Part shown: one piece after another, positions 1 through 29,687 of the stretch | How the letters are laid out: each line of letters begins with the position of its first letter | Numbering within the stretch: the stretch's first letter is position 1 | IMG/VR virus record: IMGVR_UViG_3300032401_000054 | Span: 1 to 30,091 of that record | Strand: one strand, 5' to 3' | From: a virus | Length of the DNA: 30,091 bases | The notes under the pieces: model-generated | Database searches by the model: none | The model's input: only the letters and a program-made list of their open reading frames with translations | Told to the model about the DNA's origin: nothing | Translations under genes and position numbers: made by a program

Positions 1-173
1 CCTAACGGCGCCGAGTAATTACCAACAAGTTTGATAACTTTTCCTGTTTGATCTTTATAATATTGTACGGTTTGTTCTTGTTCTAAAAGATATCCTCTTT
101 TAGTTGCCGACTCGTGTAAGCCTAAGATTCTTCTTTTTTCTTCTTCTGTGATTAGAAATAAATTTTTTTTCAT
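1..173 (-). CDS. Partial protein with phage N-terminal tag
   Basis: Only the first 57 codons lie in the window; the gene runs off the left edge. The protein starts MKKNLFLITEEEKRRILGLH and continues through ATKRGYLLEQEQ to a segment that is probably the start of the mature domain. The first 20 residues closely resemble those of the gene immediately upstream on the same strand (MKKNLFLTESEKSRISGLH), while the rest differs. The two ORFs are separated by 17 bases, so they are probably co-transcribed. The shared start looks like a detachable tag rather than a fold shared by whole proteins. An LLE-Q tripeptide at residues 29-32 could be a prohead-protease type site. Function of the missing body is unknown. 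Confidence 0.75.
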   Translation of the reverse strand, partial: MKKNLFLITEEEKRRILGLHESATKRGYLLEQEQTVQYYKDQTGKVIKLVGNYSAPL

Positions 174-190
174 AATTTTTGTTTGTTTTT

Positions 191-880
191 TTAAAAATTA
201 CCTAAATCAGTTTGTATCTGACCAATTCTTAACTCATATGATTGTTTATCTTGCGGAGTCATTTTATTTTGTAATTTTCTGTAATTAGTTTGTAAATCAT
301 TAAGTTCTTTTTCTAATTCTTTTTTGTTTTTTCTTACAACTCTTGCTCCTTGTCTTTCGTTTTGTTTTTGTTGTCTATAGTCTTGTCTTATCTGTTGTGC
401 CGATTTAGGTTGACCAGGTATTACTGTGGCCGATGTTCCCGCGACTCCGTTTGTTCCCGCGACTCCGTTTGTTCCCGCAACTCCGTTTGTTCCCGCAACT
501 CCGTTTGTTCCCGCGACTCCGTTTGTTCCCGCAACTCCGTTTGTTCCCGCGACTCCGTTTGTTCCCGCGACTCCGTTTGTTCCCGCGACTCCGTTTGTTC
601 CCGCGACTCCGTTTGTTCCCGCGACTCCGTTTGTTCCCGCATTTCCTTGAGTTAACGCAGAATAAAGAGCATCTAAAGTAATTGGCCCAAGTCTTCCATC
701 AGCAGATGTTTTACCATTTCTTAAAGTCGGTGACATAATACCTTTATCTATTAACATTTGTTGTACTTGGAATAAATCAGCTTCATTTAACATGTTTTTA
801 CTTTCGGTGGCAATTGCCATTCTGTGTAAACCGCTGATTCTTGATTTTTCAGATTCAGTTAAAAATAAATTTTTTTTCAT
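191..880 (-). CDS. Tagged protein with peptidoglycan-binding domain and collagen-like repeat
   Basis: The 229-residue protein has four visible parts. Residues 1-33 are an N-terminal tag (MKKNLFLTESEKSRISGLH, then MLNEA at 30-34). Residues 36-76 resemble a PG_binding_1 domain: a VQQMLIDKGI helix followed by ADGRLGPITLDAL, the family's DGxxGxxT pattern. Residues 82-147 are eleven perfect GTNGVA hexapeptides, that is 22 consecutive Gly-X-Y triplets. The C-terminal 80 residues are highly charged and predicted coiled coil. The start lies two bases beyond the stop of the next gene upstream, so translation is probably coupled. A virion-associated cell-wall-binding protein or a fibrous structural protein is the best inference; there is no visible catalytic domain. 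The repeat could vary in copy number by slippage. Confidence 0.8.
   Translation of the reverse strand: MKKNLFLTESEKSRISGLHRMAIATESKNMLNEADLFQVQQMLIDKGIMSPTLRNGKTSADGRLGPITLDALYSALTQGNAGTNGVAGTNGVAGTNGVAGTNGVAGTNGVAGTNGVAGTNGVAGTNGVAGTNGVAGTNGVAGTNGVAGTSATVIPGQPKSAQQIRQDYRQQKQNERQGARVVRKNKKELEKELNDLQTNYRKLQNKMTPQDKQSYELRIGQIQTDLGNF
441..638 (-). repeat. Eleven tandem 18-bp units encoding Gly-X-Y triplets
   Basis: Eleven head-to-tail 18-bp units, each encoding GTNGVA on the minus strand. They are identical except for one synonymous base (gcgact versus gcaact) in units 3, 4 and 6. The reading frame is kept throughout because the unit is a multiple of three, so copy-number change would lengthen or shorten the collagen-like stalk without a frameshift. 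Confidence 0.95.
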
Positions 881-882
881 AA

Positions 883-2265
883 TTATGAGTGTGTAAATAA
901 ATTGAAGTCTTCGTCTTCTTCGGCTCTTCTGAATACTGATTCAGGTAGAACTCGTTTAGGATCCGATCCTCCAAGGTTTAGTACCATAAGGTTTTCCATA
1001 TTCCCAACACATTCAGGTAACATCTGAAGATCAGGATTATTTACCAAAGATAGGTATTGTAAATTTTGTAATTGACAAATAGCTTCAGGTAACGAAGCCA
1101 CACACCCAACAAAGTTGATTGCGTTTAACTGTTTAAATCTTCCAATGTCATTAGGAATATTAAGTAATATTTTATCTTTCGATGTATTTTTAAATGTAAG
1201 TCTTTTTAAACTTTCAGGTAATGTTGCAAAAAACTCATCAAATCCGTATAGAGCAATGAACTTAGACGCTGAATCACCAGGATAATCAATAACCACTTTC
1301 TCACCTTTATCGCCAGATAATGACTGCATGAATTCAGGTTTAAAGAATTGTTTCAATCCTTCCTCATTTGTATTTAAGAACTCAATTAAATTAATTTGTC
1401 TGTCATCAGCATCCATGAACTGATTATCAGGGAAATGGAATTGGTATCTGTCTGCTGGTAATCCTGAAACTTCACCTGTTTCTTTTCCGTAAGATTTGAA
1501 TGATCTCGCTTTGTTTGGGATTACAACATATAATGGTCCTCTACCGATGTATCTATCAAACCAAGTAAGACCAGGTGATGATGTACACCAAGTAGTTTCT
1601 CCTCGTCTTCCTTCATTATGAGATCCACCATAAAAACATGCCGCTTCTTTACCTAATGGACCTTTGTCTGAAATTTTAGCAACAGTCCAATCTTGACCTT
1701 TATAAACAATGTTAGCACCAGGATGATCATATGTTATAGAGGCCTCTTTTTTCTCATCAGCAGTTGCTTTAGTTTTTTCTAAACTAAAATCTTTGACTTG
1801 GTCTTGTAAAGTCTCAATACTTAATTTATTTATATCTCTATATTCTTGTGCTAACCTATTTTTAAATCTTTCAAACTTTTGTAGGTTTATTGTGACCTTA
1901 TATAAGTCTTCCATGAAAAGATCTTGGAATTGTTTTAATGCTTGTTTGTATTGACCTGATTGTGGATCACTAATCATTAAAGGATGGTCTGCCGGTAACT
2001 TAGGCATAATAAAGTTTTTGATTAACCACTGAGCATATTTTCCGATTTTAACTCGTTCCATATCCTGAGGTTTAACATTATCAATATCCATACCATTAGG
2101 AACTTTTGTTGTTGGGTCGGCAACAATTAACGCAAATAAAGTTTCAAATGGCATTATACCTTTTTTAGCCTTTTCTTTTGGTTTTACAAACTTATCGAAT
2201 AGCACTTGAAATCTTGAACTTTCAACAATAAGATCTCTTAATAGATTGGTGAACCTAATTGACAT
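883..2265 (-). CDS. Phage protein with C-terminal leucine-rich repeats
   Basis: A 460-residue protein starting at an ATG with an A-rich leader and no Shine-Dalgarno. Residues 1-20 form a helix, MSIRFTNLLRDLIVESSRF, containing an LIVE tetrapeptide that recalls the tags of its neighbours. The central part has a conserved-looking block, TTWCTSSPGLTWFDRYIG then GPLYVVIPNKA, near residues 220-255; I recall similar WCT...GPLYV blocks in uncharacterised phage proteins but cannot name the family. Residues about 345-450 hold three to four leucine-rich repeats (LKRLTF, LPEAICQLQNLQYLSL, LPECVGNMENLMVLNL), suggesting protein binding. It leads the minus-strand group that includes the two tagged genes downstream. 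Function is unknown; recognition of a host or virion partner is possible. Confidence 0.75.
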   Translation of the reverse strand: MSIRFTNLLRDLIVESSRFQVLFDKFVKPKEKAKKGIMPFETLFALIVADPTTKVPNGMDIDNVKPQDMERVKIGKYAQWLIKNFIMPKLPADHPLMISDPQSGQYKQALKQFQDLFMEDLYKVTINLQKFERFKNRLAQEYRDINKLSIETLQDQVKDFSLEKTKATADEKKEASITYDHPGANIVYKGQDWTVAKISDKGPLGKEAACFYGGSHNEGRRGETTWCTSSPGLTWFDRYIGRGPLYVVIPNKARSFKSYGKETGEVSGLPADRYQFHFPDNQFMDADDRQINLIEFLNTNEEGLKQFFKPEFMQSLSGDKGEKVVIDYPGDSASKFIALYGFDEFFATLPESLKRLTFKNTSKDKILLNIPNDIGRFKQLNAINFVGCVASLPEAICQLQNLQYLSLVNNPDLQMLPECVGNMENLMVLNLGGSDPKRVLPESVFRRAEEDEDFNLFTHS

Positions 2266-3150: not shown

Positions 3151-3834
3151 TTATTTTTTTCTGTATTTATTTTTATCTCTGATTATATCAATAACCTCAT
3201 CAAAGATAATCTTTTTTCTAGTTAAAAACAAGTCTGTGTCAGAATAAAATCCATCGTAAATTCGTTCAATGTCCGACATACCTGCCCAACCAATAAATTT
3301 ATATCGTTTATTCTTTGGTCCATAAAGTTTATTAACATTAACTCCGAATAGTTTACCCATTCTTTCATTTAAAGTTTCTATAAACTTAACTGAACCCCCA
3401 ACAATTCTCAAGTCCCCTCGTTTAGAATGATCTCTTTTATCTTCATTAATTCTAATACACCCATCACCATCAAAATATCCTCGTAAAAAATGTCTTTCAA
3501 TTTTTTCATCAATTTCGGGGTAATATATTGTGTATGTTTTATTTTGGTGTAGTCCAATATTTTTTAAATCATTTATCATTTTTTTACTAGAAAACCCAAT
3601 TTCACAAATATCTCTATTATTGCTTCTCCATATTTTAACTTCACTATCTAATAAAGATATAAACTTTTTAAGTATATCTTCATCTTTATTATTAATTTTG
3701 ATGTTTAATTTATATCTATATTCTTTTGGGTTATCAATTAAACATCCGTCCGCAAAAATAAAACCAAGAAAATAAGCTTTTTCAGGAGTATCTATTACCT
3801 CAAAATAATTTTCATTAAATTTTTTTCTTTTCAT
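3151..3834 (-). CDS. LAGLIDADG-family homing endonuclease
   Basis: A 227-residue protein with two LAGLIDADG-type helices, AYFLGFIFADGC at residues 20-31 and RHFLRGYFDGDGC at 114-126, each ending in the acidic residue used for metal-dependent cleavage. Two motifs in one chain means it should act as a monomer on a long asymmetric site. The C-terminal part (RIVGGSVKFIETLNERM and beyond) fits the second alpha-beta subdomain. It sits between a ribbon-helix-helix gene, whose end it overlaps by 20 bases, and the Dam gene, with no recognisable group I intron core around it. I read it as a free-standing homing endonuclease that invaded this junction, which may explain the TTG start of dam. Confidence 0.85.
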   Translation of the reverse strand: MKRKKFNENYFEVIDTPEKAYFLGFIFADGCLIDNPKEYRYKLNIKINNKDEDILKKFISLLDSEVKIWRSNNRDICEIGFSSKKMINDLKNIGLHQNKTYTIYYPEIDEKIERHFLRGYFDGDGCIRINEDKRDHSKRGDLRIVGGSVKFIETLNERMGKLFGVNVNKLYGPKNKRYKFIGWAGMSDIERIYDGFYSDTDLFLTRKKIIFDEVIDIIRDKNKYRKK

Positions 3835-3979
3835 AATGATCCTTTACTAATTCTTGTATAAACTTAGAGATACTAATTTCTTCATTCTTCATTTTATCAA
3901 ATAAAAATCGATCAATACTAATGCCGTATTTTACCTTTTTATCTTCTTCATCTTTTTTTGGTCTTCCTGGTTTACTCAT
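3815..3979 (-). CDS. Small ribbon-helix-helix DNA-binding protein
   Basis: A 54-residue protein running from MSKPGRPKKDEEDKKV to a C-terminus of DHYEKKKI. After a basic N-terminal tail (GRPKK, an AT-hook-like motif), the core KYGISIDRFLFDKM... ISISKFIQELVKDHY has the spacing of a ribbon-helix-helix (Arc/CopG) fold: a short strand, helix, turn, helix. Proteins of this kind bind operators as dimers, often their own. It overlaps the homing endonuclease start by 20 bases. It is transcribed away from the small membrane-protein gene at 4074, with a palindrome between them that could be its operator. The assignment rests on pattern only, because the protein is very short. Confidence 0.65.
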   Translation of the reverse strand: MSKPGRPKKDEEDKKVKYGISIDRFLFDKMKNEEISISKFIQELVKDHYEKKKI

Positions 3980-7579: not shown

Positions 7580-9151
7580 TTATTGCGTCTTTCTGTTGTA
7601 TCCCATTAACTGTTGGATTCTGCCAAACTCTTCGTTTAGTTGATTTTCCTGTTTAATGTTTTTACTTTCTTCCAACTTGTTTAAAACACTTTGAGCTGTT
7701 TTTTTACCTCTTTTAGACTTAAGTGTACCTCTTTCAGTTTCTTCACCGGCTTGATCAACAGGTTGTGGTTGTCTCTTATAAGAAGCATTCATCTGTTCTT
7801 GACCATATAAGTTATCTTTGAAGTTCTTATAGAATCTCTCCCCTACTTCACTTGGTACAACATTACCTAAAGCCTTACCGTCTTTATCAACTTGTGCGTT
7901 TCCATTAGTACTACTTCCAACTAATTGACCTTTAATTTTTTCATCATTAGGTTTGATTTCATCATAAACCAAGTTAGTTTGTCCTGGATAAGAAAAAGCT
8001 TCAATATATTCATCAACAGCGTCTGATGGGGTATATTTTTTTCTTTTAGCTTTCATTCCACCATTTTCCGTTGGAAATTTTTGAGTTTCTTTCATTTCAT
8101 ACTTAGAAAACTTATCTGAAGATCCTTTTAAATAATCAGTCATTTTTTTAGCGACATTTTTTAAATAATCTTCGTTTTCTTTTTTATCTGCCTTGTGTAC
8201 TCTTTCGTATTCTGTATAACCCTTTGGTTCTTTAACTGAAAATTTCTTTTTTTCTTCATTTACAATATTTTCAATTAAGTCAATTAAATCTGATTCTGTA
8301 AATAATATTGATTCTTTAACATTATATTTTTTACCGTCAACTTCAAATTCATCTTTGTGGTGTTTTTTAGCGTTAGACAAAGCCCCTGTGAAAGCATTAC
8401 CTTCATCAGTTTCTTCTTTTTCAAAATCAACTTCATAAAGTTGTTCTTCTTCATCTTGTTGTTTTCTTAACATTTTAAAGTCTTCTCCGTCTATCTTTCC
8501 GTTTTTGTTTTTATCAATATTTCTTTGTTTTCCGTAAAGTTTTTCGTCTAACTCTTCGTAGTTATTTTCATATTCATTAAATTCCTCATTTTCTTCTAAT
8601 TCATTCCAATCTGTTTCAATATCTAAATCTTCAAAGTCATTATCTTCATCATCATAGTCTGTAAAATTAAATTCTTCGTAGTCATCGTCATCGTCCTCAT
8701 CACCTTTAAGAAGTTTTTCAATTTCATCGTTAGTCATTTGGTTTTTAAACTTTGTTTTTCCAAATCTTGGGTGTCCGTCATCCATACCTCCAAGTTCTTG
8801 AAGATCAATTTCGTACATATTGCCACATTCTGAACATTCACCTTCGTTCATTTCTCCACCACATGATTCACACATGTTAGATCCTTCCATGTTCTCTTCT
8901 TCTTGAAGATCAATTTCGTACATATTGCCACATTCTGAACATTCACCTTCGTTCATTTCTCCACCACATGATTCACACATGTTAGATCCTTCCATGTTCT
9001 CTTCTTCTTGAACATAATCAAATTCATTATCTTTGTTCAATTTAAGAGTTTTGTTGTAATCAAGTTTGTTCATAAGCGATTCCGCCTTTTCTTCAAGATC
9101 TTCTTTTAAGATTTTTCTGAAAGCATTTACTATATAGTTTTTATTACTCAT
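7580..9151 (-). CDS. Large acidic protein with duplicated Cys4 units and an EF-hand loop
   Basis: A 523-residue protein. Residues 1-35 are helical (NAFRKILKEDLEEKAESL). Two perfect 35-residue copies follow, each with CxxC...CxxC (C59, C62, C71, C74 and C94, C97, C106, C109), which look like rubredoxin/zinc-ribbon knuckles. Residues 150-205 are extremely acidic. DKNKNGKIDGED at 213-224 fits a calcium-binding EF-hand loop, with D at positions 1 and 12, N at 3 and 5, and G at 6. ILFTESDLIDLIENIVNEE near residue 280 repeats a helix I associate with phage tag sequences. The last 20 residues, LNEEFGRIQQLMGYN, contain a RIxxL motif like the N-terminal tags at 1-880. Function unknown; an internal virion or scaffold-like protein is an inference. 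Confidence 0.75.
   Translation of the reverse strand: MSNKNYIVNAFRKILKEDLEEKAESLMNKLDYNKTLKLNKDNEFDYVQEEENMEGSNMCESCGGEMNEGECSECGNMYEIDLQEEENMEGSNMCESCGGEMNEGECSECGNMYEIDLQELGGMDDGHPRFGKTKFKNQMTNDEIEKLLKGDEDDDDDYEEFNFTDYDDEDNDFEDLDIETDWNELEENEEFNEYENNYEELDEKLYGKQRNIDKNKNGKIDGEDFKMLRKQQDEEEQLYEVDFEKEETDEGNAFTGALSNAKKHHKDEFEVDGKKYNVKESILFTESDLIDLIENIVNEEKKKFSVKEPKGYTEYERVHKADKKENEDYLKNVAKKMTDYLKGSSDKFSKYEMKETQKFPTENGGMKAKRKKYTPSDAVDEYIEAFSYPGQTNLVYDEIKPNDEKIKGQLVGSSTNGNAQVDKDGKALGNVVPSEVGERFYKNFKDNLYGQEQMNASYKRQPQPVDQAGEETERGTLKSKRGKKTAQSVLNKLEESKNIKQENQLNEEFGRIQQLMGYNRKTQ
8795..9012 (-). repeat. Perfect 105-bp tandem duplication
   Basis: Two adjacent 105-bp copies (8795-8899 and 8900-9004) with no mismatch seen, followed by the first eight bases of a third. 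Each encodes one 35-residue zinc-knuckle unit in frame. Lack of synonymous differences points to a recent duplication or to gene conversion. Confidence 0.93.
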
Positions 9152-24202: not shown

Positions 24203-26086
24203 ATGGCGTGTGTTCTTTTTAGTATATATACTGGTACAACTTCAGCAGGATTATGTGAGGGTAATGGTAAAGAAATGCAAGTTTATATTGATGCCACAGC
24301 ACCTTTTCCTGATTTTACAACAGTTAACACAGACCCTGGTTGTTTAACACCAGCAAGTGGAAGTTTTTTCTTCTATTATCAAAACTATGTTTATGATTAC
24401 TCTGGTGTGTATATTGTATCATCGACTCGTTGTCCAACACCAACCCCAACACCAACTCCAACAGTTACACCTACGTTAACAACAACACCAACTAATACGC
24501 CAACTGAAACTCCAACAAATACGCCAACTGAAACTCCAACAAATACGCCAACTGAAACTCCAACAAATACTCCAACTGAAACTCCAACAAATACGCCAAC
24601 TGAAACTCCAACTAATACGCCAACTGAAACTCCAACAAATACTCCTACACAAACATTAACACCTACTAACACAAAAACCCCAACACCAACACCAACATTT
24701 ACCCCAACACCTTCATCAACCCCAACATCAGATTATTGTGTTCATAATACAATAACTTACGACGGTGATTATTTTTTTGGTGGTACTTATGACGGATATA
24801 ATTATTATAACAATACAACATTATTGGTTGGTTTTATTTTTTATTCAATACTTGAAAATAGATGGTGTTTAGCTGCGAATTTAGGTGATCCTTGCGTTGA
24901 GTTTGGGCCATATGGTAGTACTTCGTCTACACCAGATTTAGACGATACTGTGATGTATATTGGTATTTGTGTCACAACAACCACAACCACAAATCCTTGT
25001 GCGAATTTTGACTTTGACGCAATTTTTGATTGTTTTATTCAACCAACACCAAGTATCACACCTACCAACACAACAACCCCTACTATAACACCAACCCCTT
25101 CTGTGACAGCACTTTGTGGTGGAAGGTCTCTTAGTGCAAGCATATCGTCAATTTCTCCTACCCCAACTGCGACTCCAACAGTTACACCTTCGTCAACACC
25201 TGTTATTACAAGACCTTGTGTTTTTTCGGGTGAAGTAGTATTTAACTCCATAAATCAAATTATTGAATGTGCTAATAGTAAGAAATTTAAAGATTGTTTT
25301 ACAGGAATTAATTACTTTACATCAGGATTAGTTTTAGTTTCAGGTACTACATCACCAAAAGAAGGTTATGTGTATAACGCAACGATCAACGGATTAAGTT
25401 ATTGTGTGGTATTTGAAGGTTTATTTGAAAACCTAAGTGGTGTTGATAATATTAGTTTAACAAATGAAGTTGGCCCATCTAACTTAGGTTCGTGTTTAGA
25501 ATGTACACCATCTTTACCTGAACCAATTTTAGAATGTGTTATTGCTAGTTCCAAATGTGGTACTTCTTATGCTACTCCAGGTCCGTATATTAATGGTAAA
25601 CTATCATATACATGGAGTTTTACTTTACCTATTTCCCCTCAGTACTTTTATAAAATTTATTGGGATAATATCAATGACCGATGGAATGCAACTGAAACCA
25701 CAACAAATGTATTAGGGGCTTATTTAGAAATAGATAGCGAACTTCCAATAGGCACAGCATTAGAGTGGGTTATTGGTTTAACTACCAATCCATCCGTAGG
25801 TTGTTTTGATGATACTTTTACCACAACCCTATTAAATGTTCCTTGCCCGACATTAACACCAACACCTACTCCAACACCAAGTGCAACACCTTGTGTTCAA
25901 AAGAAATATCGTGTCACTAATGTGAGCCCATCAGTCATAACATTTCAATACACAACTTGTGTTGGAGGATCACCCATAACTGTTTCTTTGGCTGGTTATG
26001 CATTTAGTGTGATTTGTTCCTCTACGGTACCTGTTTCAAACAACCCACAAAATGTATTCATAATCCCTTTGGGATTTGTATGTTAA
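24203..26086 (+). CDS. Pro/Thr-rich, Cys-module virion or adhesin protein
   Basis: A 627-residue protein built from short Cys-rich beta domains joined by Pro/Thr-rich linkers. Domain 1 is at about 1-76; a 100-residue linker (79-177) contains the PTETPTNT repeats. Further domains follow, with linkers at about 285-305 and 315-335 and a last linker [17 protein letters not shown]. The C-terminal domain, [18 protein letters not shown] then VICSSTVPV, has the same pattern as a module of the opposite-strand structural protein at 26802-29687 (YRVKGDADGVIYTFTPCC, then YYICSSSGIVV). There is no signal peptide. I infer a tail-associated or receptor-binding decoration rather than an enzyme. The linkers are extended and possibly glycosylated. 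Confidence 0.7.
24491..24645 (+). repeat. 24-bp tandem repeat encoding PTETPTNT
   Basis: About six consecutive 24-bp units, each encoding an eight-residue PTETPTNT linker segment, differing mainly by acg/act and aca/act choices. The unit keeps frame, so copy-number change would alter linker length only. Confidence 0.88.
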
Positions 26087-26801: not shown

Positions 26802-29687
26802 TTAAAAATCTAATTTAATTACATACTGTTGAATCCCTTGTCTTAACACTGGTGATTGCATTTTTGACATAACTAAAATATCTTCGTTTTCATCTAATAA
26901 CGCAATTTCTGTAACATAAGATGGTGTTCCAAATTTCCATGTTGGGTTTTGAGAAACTAAGAACTCAGAAGAACTTAAATTAATTTTGTACTTCATTTCG
27001 TAAATTGTTGCTTGAATGTCGGTTTCTAAATTTCCATAAAAGAAATACTCATCACCAAAATTCATGCTTGTTCCACTATAATTTAAAGGTACTAAATCAA
27101 TATAATCGTTAAGATTGTAATAATTTGCCGCAGAATAATTGTCTTGTGAGATAACAAAAGTTGTTCCTGTAAGAGACTCCTGAGTTACAAAACCATTTAT
27201 AAACATTGAACTTATCTCACTTGTAAAGTCTATTATTTTCCAATTTTCGGCAACTGGTCTTTGCCCAACAGGCACTTTTTGAGCCAAAACTTGGAATTCA
27301 GTTGCATAAAAACCTTGAGGTACAACACAAGTAGGACATCCTGTTGGTGTAGGTGTTAAAGTAACTGTAGGTGTTGGTGTAGGTGTGTTAAATTCTGTTT
27401 GTGTGTTAGTTACGGTAACACTTGGGGTTAGTGTTTGAGTATTTGTAACACTTGGTGTTATTGTATTTGTTGGTGTAACCGTTGGTGTTACAGTTGGTGT
27501 ATTAGTTGGTGTTTGACATCCAGGACAAGCTCCTTGATTAATTACTGTTGCAGTACCATTTGTAACAACAATCCCACTAGAAGAACAAATATAATAGCTA
27601 GTTCCTGCATCATTATCAGTAAATGGTGAAGTCAGTGTCTCTCCACAACAAGGTGTAAATGTATAAATGACGCCATCGGCATCTCCTTTAACACGGTAAT
27701 TGAAACAAACCTCAGTTGGTGTTGGTGTTGGAGTTTTAGTATTAGTTGGTGTTACTGTAGGAGTTGTCGTTGGTGTACTTGTGGGGTTAGGAATTGGAAT
27801 AAACGATGGTTGTACTAAACATGAAAAATCTCCTCCAAATCTAACTCCAACATTTCTTGGTGTATCTGGTGTACAAATATTTTCAGTTCCTAAAATACTA
27901 GTGTAGTAATTACAATGTAATGAATTTGTAAATGTGTCATGATTTGATAATCTATAAGTAACCCATAAAGTTTCCGCACCACCTGTAAGTAATCCTGTAG
28001 TATTTGATGTACCACATGTGTTTGGTGTGATAAGCGATAATTGAGGTGACGGTAATGTCCAGTTTCTATTTGATTTATAAGAAAGTGCCGCTACTATTTC
28101 TTCATCATCAATAATCACCATTTTAGAATCAGGATATACTTTACCAATTCTACTTGGTAATCCATTTGGTTGTGCAAATGTGTCCCAAAGGTTATAGTAT
28201 CTTAAACCAGGTTGGTTCATGTTTTCAGATACAGTAGACTTTGTGTATTGAACTTGAAATAAATTTTTATTGTCAAATCCCGAAGGATCAACATAAAATG
28301 TTTGACCAAAACAACATTCAGGGTTTTTATGCCACATTAATGTTGGTATGTGTAATTTAAAATTTCTTGCTTGTCCTTGTGTATTTTCAGGATTCTGAGC
28401 ATCGTAAGGTTGCATCGCAAATTTCTCACCATAAAAGAAATCAATAGTTTGATTTGTATAATGTATTATAGATATTGCTTTTTGATTTTGTGGTGTTACA
28501 ACTTGTTTTTCCCCAAATGAGTTATAATGATATACATCATCTGTTGAGGTTTGAGCACTTGTTGTATAACCAAAATACTCTTTAGATCCAATATATTGTA
28601 CAGACCCAAACTTAGTGTAATTTTGGACTTGATTTGATAATAATCCCGCTGGACTTTCTGTCCATGGAATATTCATATTCCAAATTTTAACATCAAACTG
28701 ATCGGTATCACAAACAGATTCAAAATCAATAACACTATCATTCCAATGCGGTCTAGGAGTAAAACTATCGTAAAGAGGTACCATTTTAGGTGGATAAATC
28801 AATGCTCTTGCAACACATTGAGTTGCAACTTCTAAAAAATCAGGAGTTGCTCTATCTAAAGTTAATAAACTACCACATACCGCAACAATTCTATAAGTTA
28901 AAATTGGGTAACAACCATAAACCTGTTTAGTACATTCAGTCATTGGTGGTACTGGACATACAGGACTTTGTGATACTGTAATACAAGGTGTTTTAGTAGG
29001 TGTTGGTGTTGCCGTTGGTGAGGTACAAGGACCAACCCCCGAACTTGTAACTGTTGGTGTTGGTGTTGGTGTTTGATATTGACTAGCCGTTGGTGAAATA
29101 GTTGGTGTTGGTGTTGGTAAATTTGAACATGAACAATCTAAAGCCGCCAATCCATCGTAATAAATTGTAATAAAGTCACCAACTTGTGGTGTTTCCGTTA
29201 TAGTTGGATTACAATTTAAATTATAAACTTCAATTTGGTTTGTTCCACTTAAAGATGACATGTTAACAACATAATTAGGTGTTGAGACATAATTACTACT
29301 TGTGAAAGCCGACCAATTAATTGTTGTTGCTGTTGTATTACCTGTAAAAAAACCTCTTGGTGCTGCCCTATTAAATACTGAATCAAATATAGAATCCATA
29401 AATGGAATTCCATAAATATTTGTTTCTCCTTGGTCAACCAAATAAGGATACTTAATATATTGTCTGTTTGATTCAGGAACACCACTACTGTTTTGAGCAT
29501 TAAACTGTGGTTCCAAAATCACAGTATTTGCTTGGTTATAAGTTGATGGAAGAGTGTTATATGAAATCTCACTATCTCCGATAGCAAAATAAGCAATATT
29601 AAAGTTACCTTCAGATAATTTTTGTCTACCTGTATCTGTAACTCTAGTATTAACTAAGCCTGAAGTATTTTTTATTATGTAAGCCAT
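26802..29687 (-). CDS. Large structural protein with Pro/Thr-rich inserts
   Basis: A 961-residue protein. The N-terminus MAYIIKNTSGLVNTRVTDTG, then FAIGDSEISYN, and the C-terminal region LETDIQATIYEMKYKI with EIALLDENEDILVMSKM look like the ends of a phage tail/baseplate-type structural protein. Between them are three Pro/Thr-rich stretches (about 190-240, 640-670 and 735-790) and several Cys-rich modules, including YRVKGDADGVIYTFTPCC, like the last module of the plus-strand protein at 24203. It is therefore a conserved virion frame carrying variable inserts. The start is an ATG six bases after ATATTTAT with no Shine-Dalgarno. A tail or baseplate decoration is the best guess. Confidence 0.75.
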   Translation of the reverse strand: MAYIIKNTSGLVNTRVTDTGRQKLSEGNFNIAYFAIGDSEISYNTLPSTYNQANTVILEPQFNAQNSSGVPESNRQYIKYPYLVDQGETNIYGIPFMDSIFDSVFNRAAPRGFFTGNTTATTINWSAFTSSNYVSTPNYVVNMSSLSGTNQIEVYNLNCNPTITETPQVGDFITIYYDGLAALDCSCSNLPTPTPTISPTASQYQTPTPTPTVTSSGVGPCTSPTATPTPTKTPCITVSQSPVCPVPPMTECTKQVYGCYPILTYRIVAVCGSLLTLDRATPDFLEVATQCVARALIYPPKMVPLYDSFTPRPHWNDSVIDFESVCDTDQFDVKIWNMNIPWTESPAGLLSNQVQNYTKFGSVQYIGSKEYFGYTTSAQTSTDDVYHYNSFGEKQVVTPQNQKAISIIHYTNQTIDFFYGEKFAMQPYDAQNPENTQGQARNFKLHIPTLMWHKNPECCFGQTFYVDPSGFDNKNLFQVQYTKSTVSENMNQPGLRYYNLWDTFAQPNGLPSRIGKVYPDSKMVIIDDEEIVAALSYKSNRNWTLPSPQLSLITPNTCGTSNTTGLLTGGAETLWVTYRLSNHDTFTNSLHCNYYTSILGTENICTPDTPRNVGVRFGGDFSCLVQPSFIPIPNPTSTPTTTPTVTPTNTKTPTPTPTEVCFNYRVKGDADGVIYTFTPCCGETLTSPFTDNDAGTSYYICSSSGIVVTNGTATVINQGACPGCQTPTNTPTVTPTVTPTNTITPSVTNTQTLTPSVTVTNTQTEFNTPTPTPTVTLTPTPTGCPTCVVPQGFYATEFQVLAQKVPVGQRPVAENWKIIDFTSEISSMFINGFVTQESLTGTTFVISQDNYSAANYYNLNDYIDLVPLNYSGTSMNFGDEYFFYGNLETDIQATIYEMKYKINLSSSEFLVSQNPTWKFGTPSYVTEIALLDENEDILVMSKMQSPVLRQGIQQYVIKLDF

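Follow-up and report, generated by a model that had tools for sequence, protein, structure and literature searches.

Short N-terminal tags on otherwise unrelated proteins of large, uncultured freshwater Bacteroidetes phages probably form an expanded, modular capsid-targeting and cleavage system of the kind represented by the capsid-targeting sequences (CTS) of T4, as judged from the tag sequences and from the head genes of tagged phages. The window, i.e. the whole stretch of DNA analysed, is a 30,091-bp virus fragment from IMG/VR with a G+C content of about 27-34%, in which two genes begin with such a tag. Both tags end at the gp21-type site [LI]xE; in the following a slash marks the cleavage position, known or proposed.

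Tagged genes of the window and their relatives

The proteins of genes 3-173(-) and 191-880(-) start with MKKNLFLITEEEKRRILGLHESATKRGYLLEQ and MKKNLFLTESEKSRISGLHRMAIATESKNMLNEA, respectively, and match each other with E=1.3e-4 across 28 residues. The original prediction that these two proteins (the first given as 1-173) carry related tags is confirmed by this match and by the distribution of the tag core EKxRILGLHE. A degenerate DNA pattern for the core finds 34 matches in viral (IMG/VR) contigs and just 3, all in unrelated bacteria, in contigs from bacteria and archaea (257 Gb), which were scanned with the aim of finding a host or prophage. The first protein reads MKKNLFLITEEEKRRILGLHESATKRGYLLE/QEQTVQYY..., with the tag end YLLE/Q, and is interrupted by the window edge after 57 aa; its full length of 310 aa is seen in the L005/L366 contig, whose flanking LRR gene matches that of the window at 99.9% identity. 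The second protein, MKKNLFLTESEKSRISGLHRMAIATESKNMLNE/ADLFQVQ..., has 229 aa and the tag end MLNE/A. The P1 Glu is residue 31 of the first and residue 33 of the second protein, located 11 and 14 residues past LH. Behind the tag and a first domain the two proteins share two parts, a collagen-like linker and a predicted coiled coil rich in IRQ, so the earlier description of them as two different proteins went too far. The LRR-type neighbour likewise holds an IxE in its N-terminus (MSIRFTNLLRDLIVE/S), and in relatives a variable island of tagged genes lies downstream of this gene (Table 1).

Table 1. Positions in the window of the tags, the parts of the tagged genes and associated elements
Feature	Position	Strand	Basis or remark
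Tag 1, residues 1-31, MKKNLFLITEEEKRRILGLHESATKRGYLLE	81..173	(-)	cleavage proposed behind E31, at bases 81/80
Cargo body of the first gene, start only (window edge)	3..80	(-)	translation; full copy L366:5386-6318
Tag 2, residues 1-33, MKKNLFLTESEKSRISGLHRMAIATESKNMLNE	782..880	(-)	cleavage proposed behind E33, at bases 782/781
Possible peptidoglycan-binding-like segment, residues 35-78	647..778	(-)	weak: PG_binding_3 E=0.05, below cut-off
Collagen-like (AGTNGV)n linker	434..643	(-)	Pfam Collagen 2.5e-10; 11.5 copies of an 18-bp tandem unit
C-terminal helical, predicted coiled-coil segment, residues 161-227	200..400	(-)	AlphaFold2, pLDDT about 90
26-bp repeat, copy at the start of tag 1	152..177	(-)	one bound of the 707-bp tagged-gene unit
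26-bp repeat, copy at the start of tag 2	859..884	(-)	other bound of the 707-bp tagged-gene unit
LRR-type neighbour gene, conserved	883..2265	(-)	comparison with relatives
C-terminal LNE/EFGRIQQLMGYNRKTQ of gene 7580-9151, candidate tag counterpart	7583..7639	(-)	tentative

Elsewhere the window encodes a LAGLIDADG homing endonuclease together with a 54-aa gene (3151-3979(-)), beside a D12-type DNA methylase. This pair is also found in L003 and is absent between the equivalent neighbours in L004; it is probably a mobile insertion. Two long proteins with Thr-Pro repeat linkers (24203-26086(+) and 26802-29687(-)) have no Pfam match and are probably fibre or other structural proteins. A cysteine-synthase-type pyridoxal-phosphate-dependent enzyme (PF00291, 6e-67) is encoded by the phage at 19352-20233(-).

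The type of tag found in both window genes (family 2, EEKNRILGLH...[LI]xE) occurs in IMG/VR contigs on 53 distinct proteins belonging to 33 body families. Family 1 (MKKxIRLTESDLxRIVKRVIxEQ) comprises at least 201 proteins with at least about 140 body families and is commoner still, since these numbers cover only part of its matches. In alignments of 34 and 115 representatives the consensus covers the tag, and hardly any conservation is seen behind it. Ten gene sets, taken from nine contigs or records and from the window, contain 56 copies of the two tag cores close to an N-terminus and only 2 other matches, a start-codon miscall and a chance internal match. The tags are thus short N-terminal sequences on otherwise unrelated proteins, as expected for a CTS. 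When four tag classes are counted, the large genomes G001, G054 and G060 carry 28, 23 and 19 tagged genes, so that the load is roughly 10-30 per large genome with several tag families, a scale that the original prediction had missed. In a further class, small genes starting with MKIIITExQ..L form tandem arrays with four to six members downstream of the LRR gene (L004 3573-5791, L366 6364-8633, L374, L376 and others). These arrays differ between phages, and we treat them separately because their LxE is inconsistent (present in 26 and missing in 18 of 44 in the ten gene sets). Searches of deposited phages with both tag consensuses and with the LRR protein of the window gave no match, which for the tags is weak evidence of absence since filters may remove queries as short as these.

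The cleavage motif and the boundaries of the tag module

Based on a search pattern that left the site out, 50 of the 53 family 2 proteins have [LIVM]xE after the core, compared to 21.1 expected from shuffling and 13/53 in control stretches 40 aa farther downstream. The distance between core and site varies from 3 to 18 residues, and the site is absent in the other 3 proteins. For family 1 the site is found in 199/201 and absent in 2/201 among the matches listed, a number that is biased because the scan pattern already demanded EQ. In the ten gene sets it is present in all family 1 (34/34), family 2 (20/20) and RIKxMMG-type (14/14) tags. To characterize the tag end we compared pairs of tags that are at least 80% identical in DNA and stand on unrelated bodies. 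Codon identity at P1 is 0.97 for family 2 and 0.93 for family 1, drops at P1' to 0.77 and 0.61, and amounts to 0.15-0.41 beyond. In these pairs P3 and P1 are tightly conserved while P2 is much looser. Conservation that halts at P1/P1' with a loose P2 is the pattern expected where a module ends in a protease site. The residue following the cut had been predicted to be Ala or Gly, which does not hold for most tags: P1' is Gln in 24 and Ala in 6 of the 50 family 2 tags that have the site, unlike the Ala of T4 IPI-III and gp23.

The tag might instead remain uncleaved and act as a docking helix for a tail or baseplate, membrane, replication or lysis partner, [LI]xE then being the end of an amphipathic helix. 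For the window protein the AlphaFold2 model, which is too uncertain for a fold search, indeed has a low-confidence helix at residues 9-31, and several cargoes act on the cell wall. A docking helix is nevertheless unlikely, given that P3 and P1 are fixed but P2 is free, that the core-to-site distance is variable, and that the motif also occurs at the maturation site of the major capsid protein (MCP) and ahead of orthologous bodies whose N-termini differ in other respects. The latter is seen in three families of orthologs whose genes lie close to those for terminase, capsid or tail: their N-termini change between orthologs, and yet [ILVM]xE is kept shortly before the conserved body in 13/13, 21/21 and 8/8 cases (counted by hand, with one irrelevant match excluded).

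The ends of the tags also coincide with DNA breakpoints. The window and L004 are 97% identical from the LRR gene through the tag as far as the E33 codon, inside which the match stops. Likewise, L368 and L370 are 98% identical across a 33-codon tag and separate at the last base of LINEQ, with unrelated bodies behind it. Moreover, a 707-bp tagged-gene unit of the window, bounded by a 26-bp repeat that forms the tag start, is absent from the otherwise 99.9% identical L366. These breakpoints and the presence or absence of the 707-bp unit identify the tag as the place of cargo exchange. The tag may possibly also be how cassettes come and go, by a mechanism that would involve recombination.

Ordinary paralogy, in which one family has kept its N-terminal domain while the bodies diverged, could account for the linker and coiled-coil parts common to both window proteins. 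As an explanation of the tags in general it is scarcely credible and is largely refuted by L368 and L370, where nearly identical tag DNA stands on unrelated bodies and breaks off at a single base; moreover, the bodies include unrelated known folds. It is also highly improbable that the tag is a DNA or RNA element (a translation enhancer, late promoter or recombination site) that is incidentally translated. The repeat at the tag start does bound a cassette that is present or absent between near-identical phages, and Bacteroidetes usually lack Shine-Dalgarno sequences (PMC9723584). Identity by codon position within the tags is, however, 0.74/0.82/0.56, with the third position least conserved, and the identity of synonymous codons is close to the value expected from codon usage. 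The codon-position identities demonstrate that the protein and not the DNA is conserved, which largely refutes such an element; a recombination role of the tag DNA beside the protein role is possible.

A counterpart of the tag may exist at C-termini. Among 1,786 proteins the RIKxMMG element is found 14 times N-terminally, 4 times C-terminally and never internally, and the C-terminal copies, which are RIxxLMGY-like, contain or follow LNE or LTE. C-termini like that of gene 7580-9151 are also present in G001, G008 and G054, and N-terminal versions of the element, MNLQENIQRIKQMMG.., stand on other proteins. We tentatively note that this arrangement recalls T4 Alt, whose two ends are both cleaved (ITE-6 and LTE-619; PMC5694885). 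Gene 7580-9151 also contains a perfect 105-bp tandem duplication (8795-9012) that doubles a zinc-ribbon-like CESCGGEMNEGECSECG segment.

Head genes and cargo of the tagged phages

A prohead protease, which the original prediction had called for, is encoded by relatives of the window, while the 30-kb window itself has no head genes, i.e. neither a protease nor a capsid gene. Peptidase_S77 (gp21) is found in 10/20 and 16/35 tagged records and Gp23 in 12/20 and 16/35 (one below the Pfam cut-off), compared to 0/35 for the HK97 capsid; wherever the MCP of a tagged record can be identified, it is of the T4 gp23 type. S77 is present in 11/13 of the records that measure 190 kb or more and are tagged or related to the window. 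The two others, G013 and G059, also have neither terminase nor MCP, and G013 starts at the edge of the head cluster; of the other long records lacking S77, G009 ends just past terL and G057 just beyond its MCP. We therefore dismiss these records as counterexamples, as they are fragments that stop at or around the head cluster. Protease and gp23-type capsid occur together in tagged relatives, including the long window relatives G054 (273 kb) and G060 (291 kb), which have S77, gp23 and a full head cluster. All 18 distinct MCP N-termini have ENQA[ST]xLINE/A, with LINE/A invariant where T4 gp23 has SFLTE/A. The scaffold mostly has ESL[TSN]E, followed mostly by Gln or Glu, and the protease N-terminus mostly [IL]xE/S or [IL]xE/N. 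In G001, G002 and G008 a tagged gene adjoins gp23 or stands one gene off.

Most tagged bodies have no recognised domain. Those that do include Tlde1/YkuD (PF10908, 4.7e-8), TseH (PF25218, 6.1e-11), PG_binding_1 in five proteins, LysM, OmpA and thioredoxin (1.1e-21), and for the window protein itself a peptidoglycan-binding segment is suggested by the PG_binding_3 hit. By eye, the N-terminus of the peptidoglycan-active proteins is the tag, with no evident signal peptide, which would fit delivery by the virion; it is possible that this cargo serves lysis instead. The presence of Tlde1-, TseH- and PG_binding-type cargo is also what one would expect of an activation propeptide without a role as an address. 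It would hold muralytic or other harmful cargo in an inactive state until late and would be cleaved by the prohead protease or by a different one; what the two propeptides of T4 Alt do is not yet settled (PMC5694885). We consider such a propeptide improbable. Thioredoxin and clearly more than a hundred small proteins unrelated to each other carry the same tags and need no common inhibitor, and an enzyme confined to the prohead can cut only what enters it.

The reading that we prefer is that the tags are capsid-targeting propeptides. Of the original proposal of a prohead tag, the cleavage half is strongly supported by the sequence evidence, namely [LI]xE, the conservation limit at P1/P1', S77 and LINE/A in relatives and the T4-like layout, whereas targeting is the part that we infer. 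The course of packaging, cleavage, ejection and cargo function that we infer is the following. Late in infection the cargo would be held in a T4-type prohead scaffold core through its N-terminal tag of 22-33 residues, which is probably helical. The gp21-type protease, while maturing the head, would also cleave the cargo behind [L/I]xE. This would remove the tag and leave free cargo in the capsid, from which it would be delivered along with the DNA. Many unrelated cargoes, peptidoglycan-active proteins among them, would be served by several tag families, and the tag also marks the exchange point of cargo modules. A fuller version is possible, if somewhat short of likely: a cassette system driven by recombination, with swappable N-terminal (sometimes C-terminal) tags at the protease site, at least 10 different proteins per virion, some of them peptidoglycan hydrolases akin to antibacterial effectors of type VI secretion, and the tag DNA serving as swap handle.

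If capsid targeting is correct, the simple rule of a tag followed by [LI]xE would predict which hypothetical proteins the virions of large and common freshwater phages contain and bring into the cell, and hundreds of small genes without known function would become candidate early effectors. The capsid-targeting principle of T4 would grow from a handful of proteins to genome-wide modular delivery and would provide a supply of new packaging tags.

Comparison with known packaging systems

The string LTESDL was not found in the papers covered by our literature search, and titles and abstracts using the term capsid targeting sequence concern only T4, P1, P22, SPN3US and T4-based tools. A link to described phages is provided by the ribosomal protein bS21 (PF01165, E=3.5e-10), which G002 encodes at 56213-56416 on the opposite strand inside the head cluster. 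By position, small genes are placed in the same way in G007, G008, G010, G054 and G060. This matches the freshwater Bacteroidetes phages of PMC9723584, which have genomes of up to about 300 kb and bS21 on the opposite strand within the terL-portal-protease-MCP cluster; the host of the window's own phage would likewise be a Bacteroidetes. That study raises the idea that bS21 itself is packaged, and its accessible parts do not mention tags. By its MCP (40% identity) the Flavobacterium phage immuto (NC_055915.1) is a cultured, deposited relative. Its genome has no tag of the families found here and contains repeated N-termini of its own, among them MENFDLKKFLVENKLTxNSKLLKEG in several genes and MKKQILSEQFKRMQxLAGIITES. 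Virion proteomics was not found in the literature for immuto or the tagged phages.

In phiKZ and SPN3US the propeptides of ejection proteins are cut by gp175/gp245 (PMC5694885, PMC9026906). As in our phages, there are paralogs with identical N-terminal stretches, and many head proteins are cut after Glu there, but the motifs are SxE/AxE, the propeptides often exceed 100 residues and the phages belong to a separate lineage. In P1 the first 30 residues of DarB suffice to carry a reporter into the capsid (PMC9024508), a signal similar in length to the tags. Unlike the Dar N-termini, for which the authors found no consensus (PMC9024508), the tag family described here spans dozens of body families.

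The closest parallel in layout is T4, whose CTS are propeptides of 10-19 residues that are removed in the prohead and are sufficient to package foreign proteins; their processing is prevented by an Asp at position 10 (PMC9026906). In the T4 control sequences IPII and IPIII both have MKTYQEFIAE/A and IPI has MKTFKEFTSTTTPVSTITE/A, ending in STITE/A; the sites of gp21, gp22 and gp23 are LIE, IAE/A and LTE/A. Compared to these CTS the tags are longer (22-33 residues), fall into several families and stand on many more genes, and P1' is usually Gln instead of Ala, although the MCP of the tagged phages always has Ala. By eye, the tags and MKTYQEFIAE have only MK and [LI]xE in common, a very short stretch without detectable sequence homology. 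Packaging has been demonstrated for T4; the tag system proposed here from sequence would work like the T4 CTS, with or without common descent. What the two have in common is a short N-terminal tag that ends in [LI]xE on otherwise unrelated proteins, as in the gp21-cut IPI, IPII, IPIII and Alt, and, in the relatives of the window, a gp21-type protease, a gp23-type capsid with an equivalent site and a scaffold in equal gene order.
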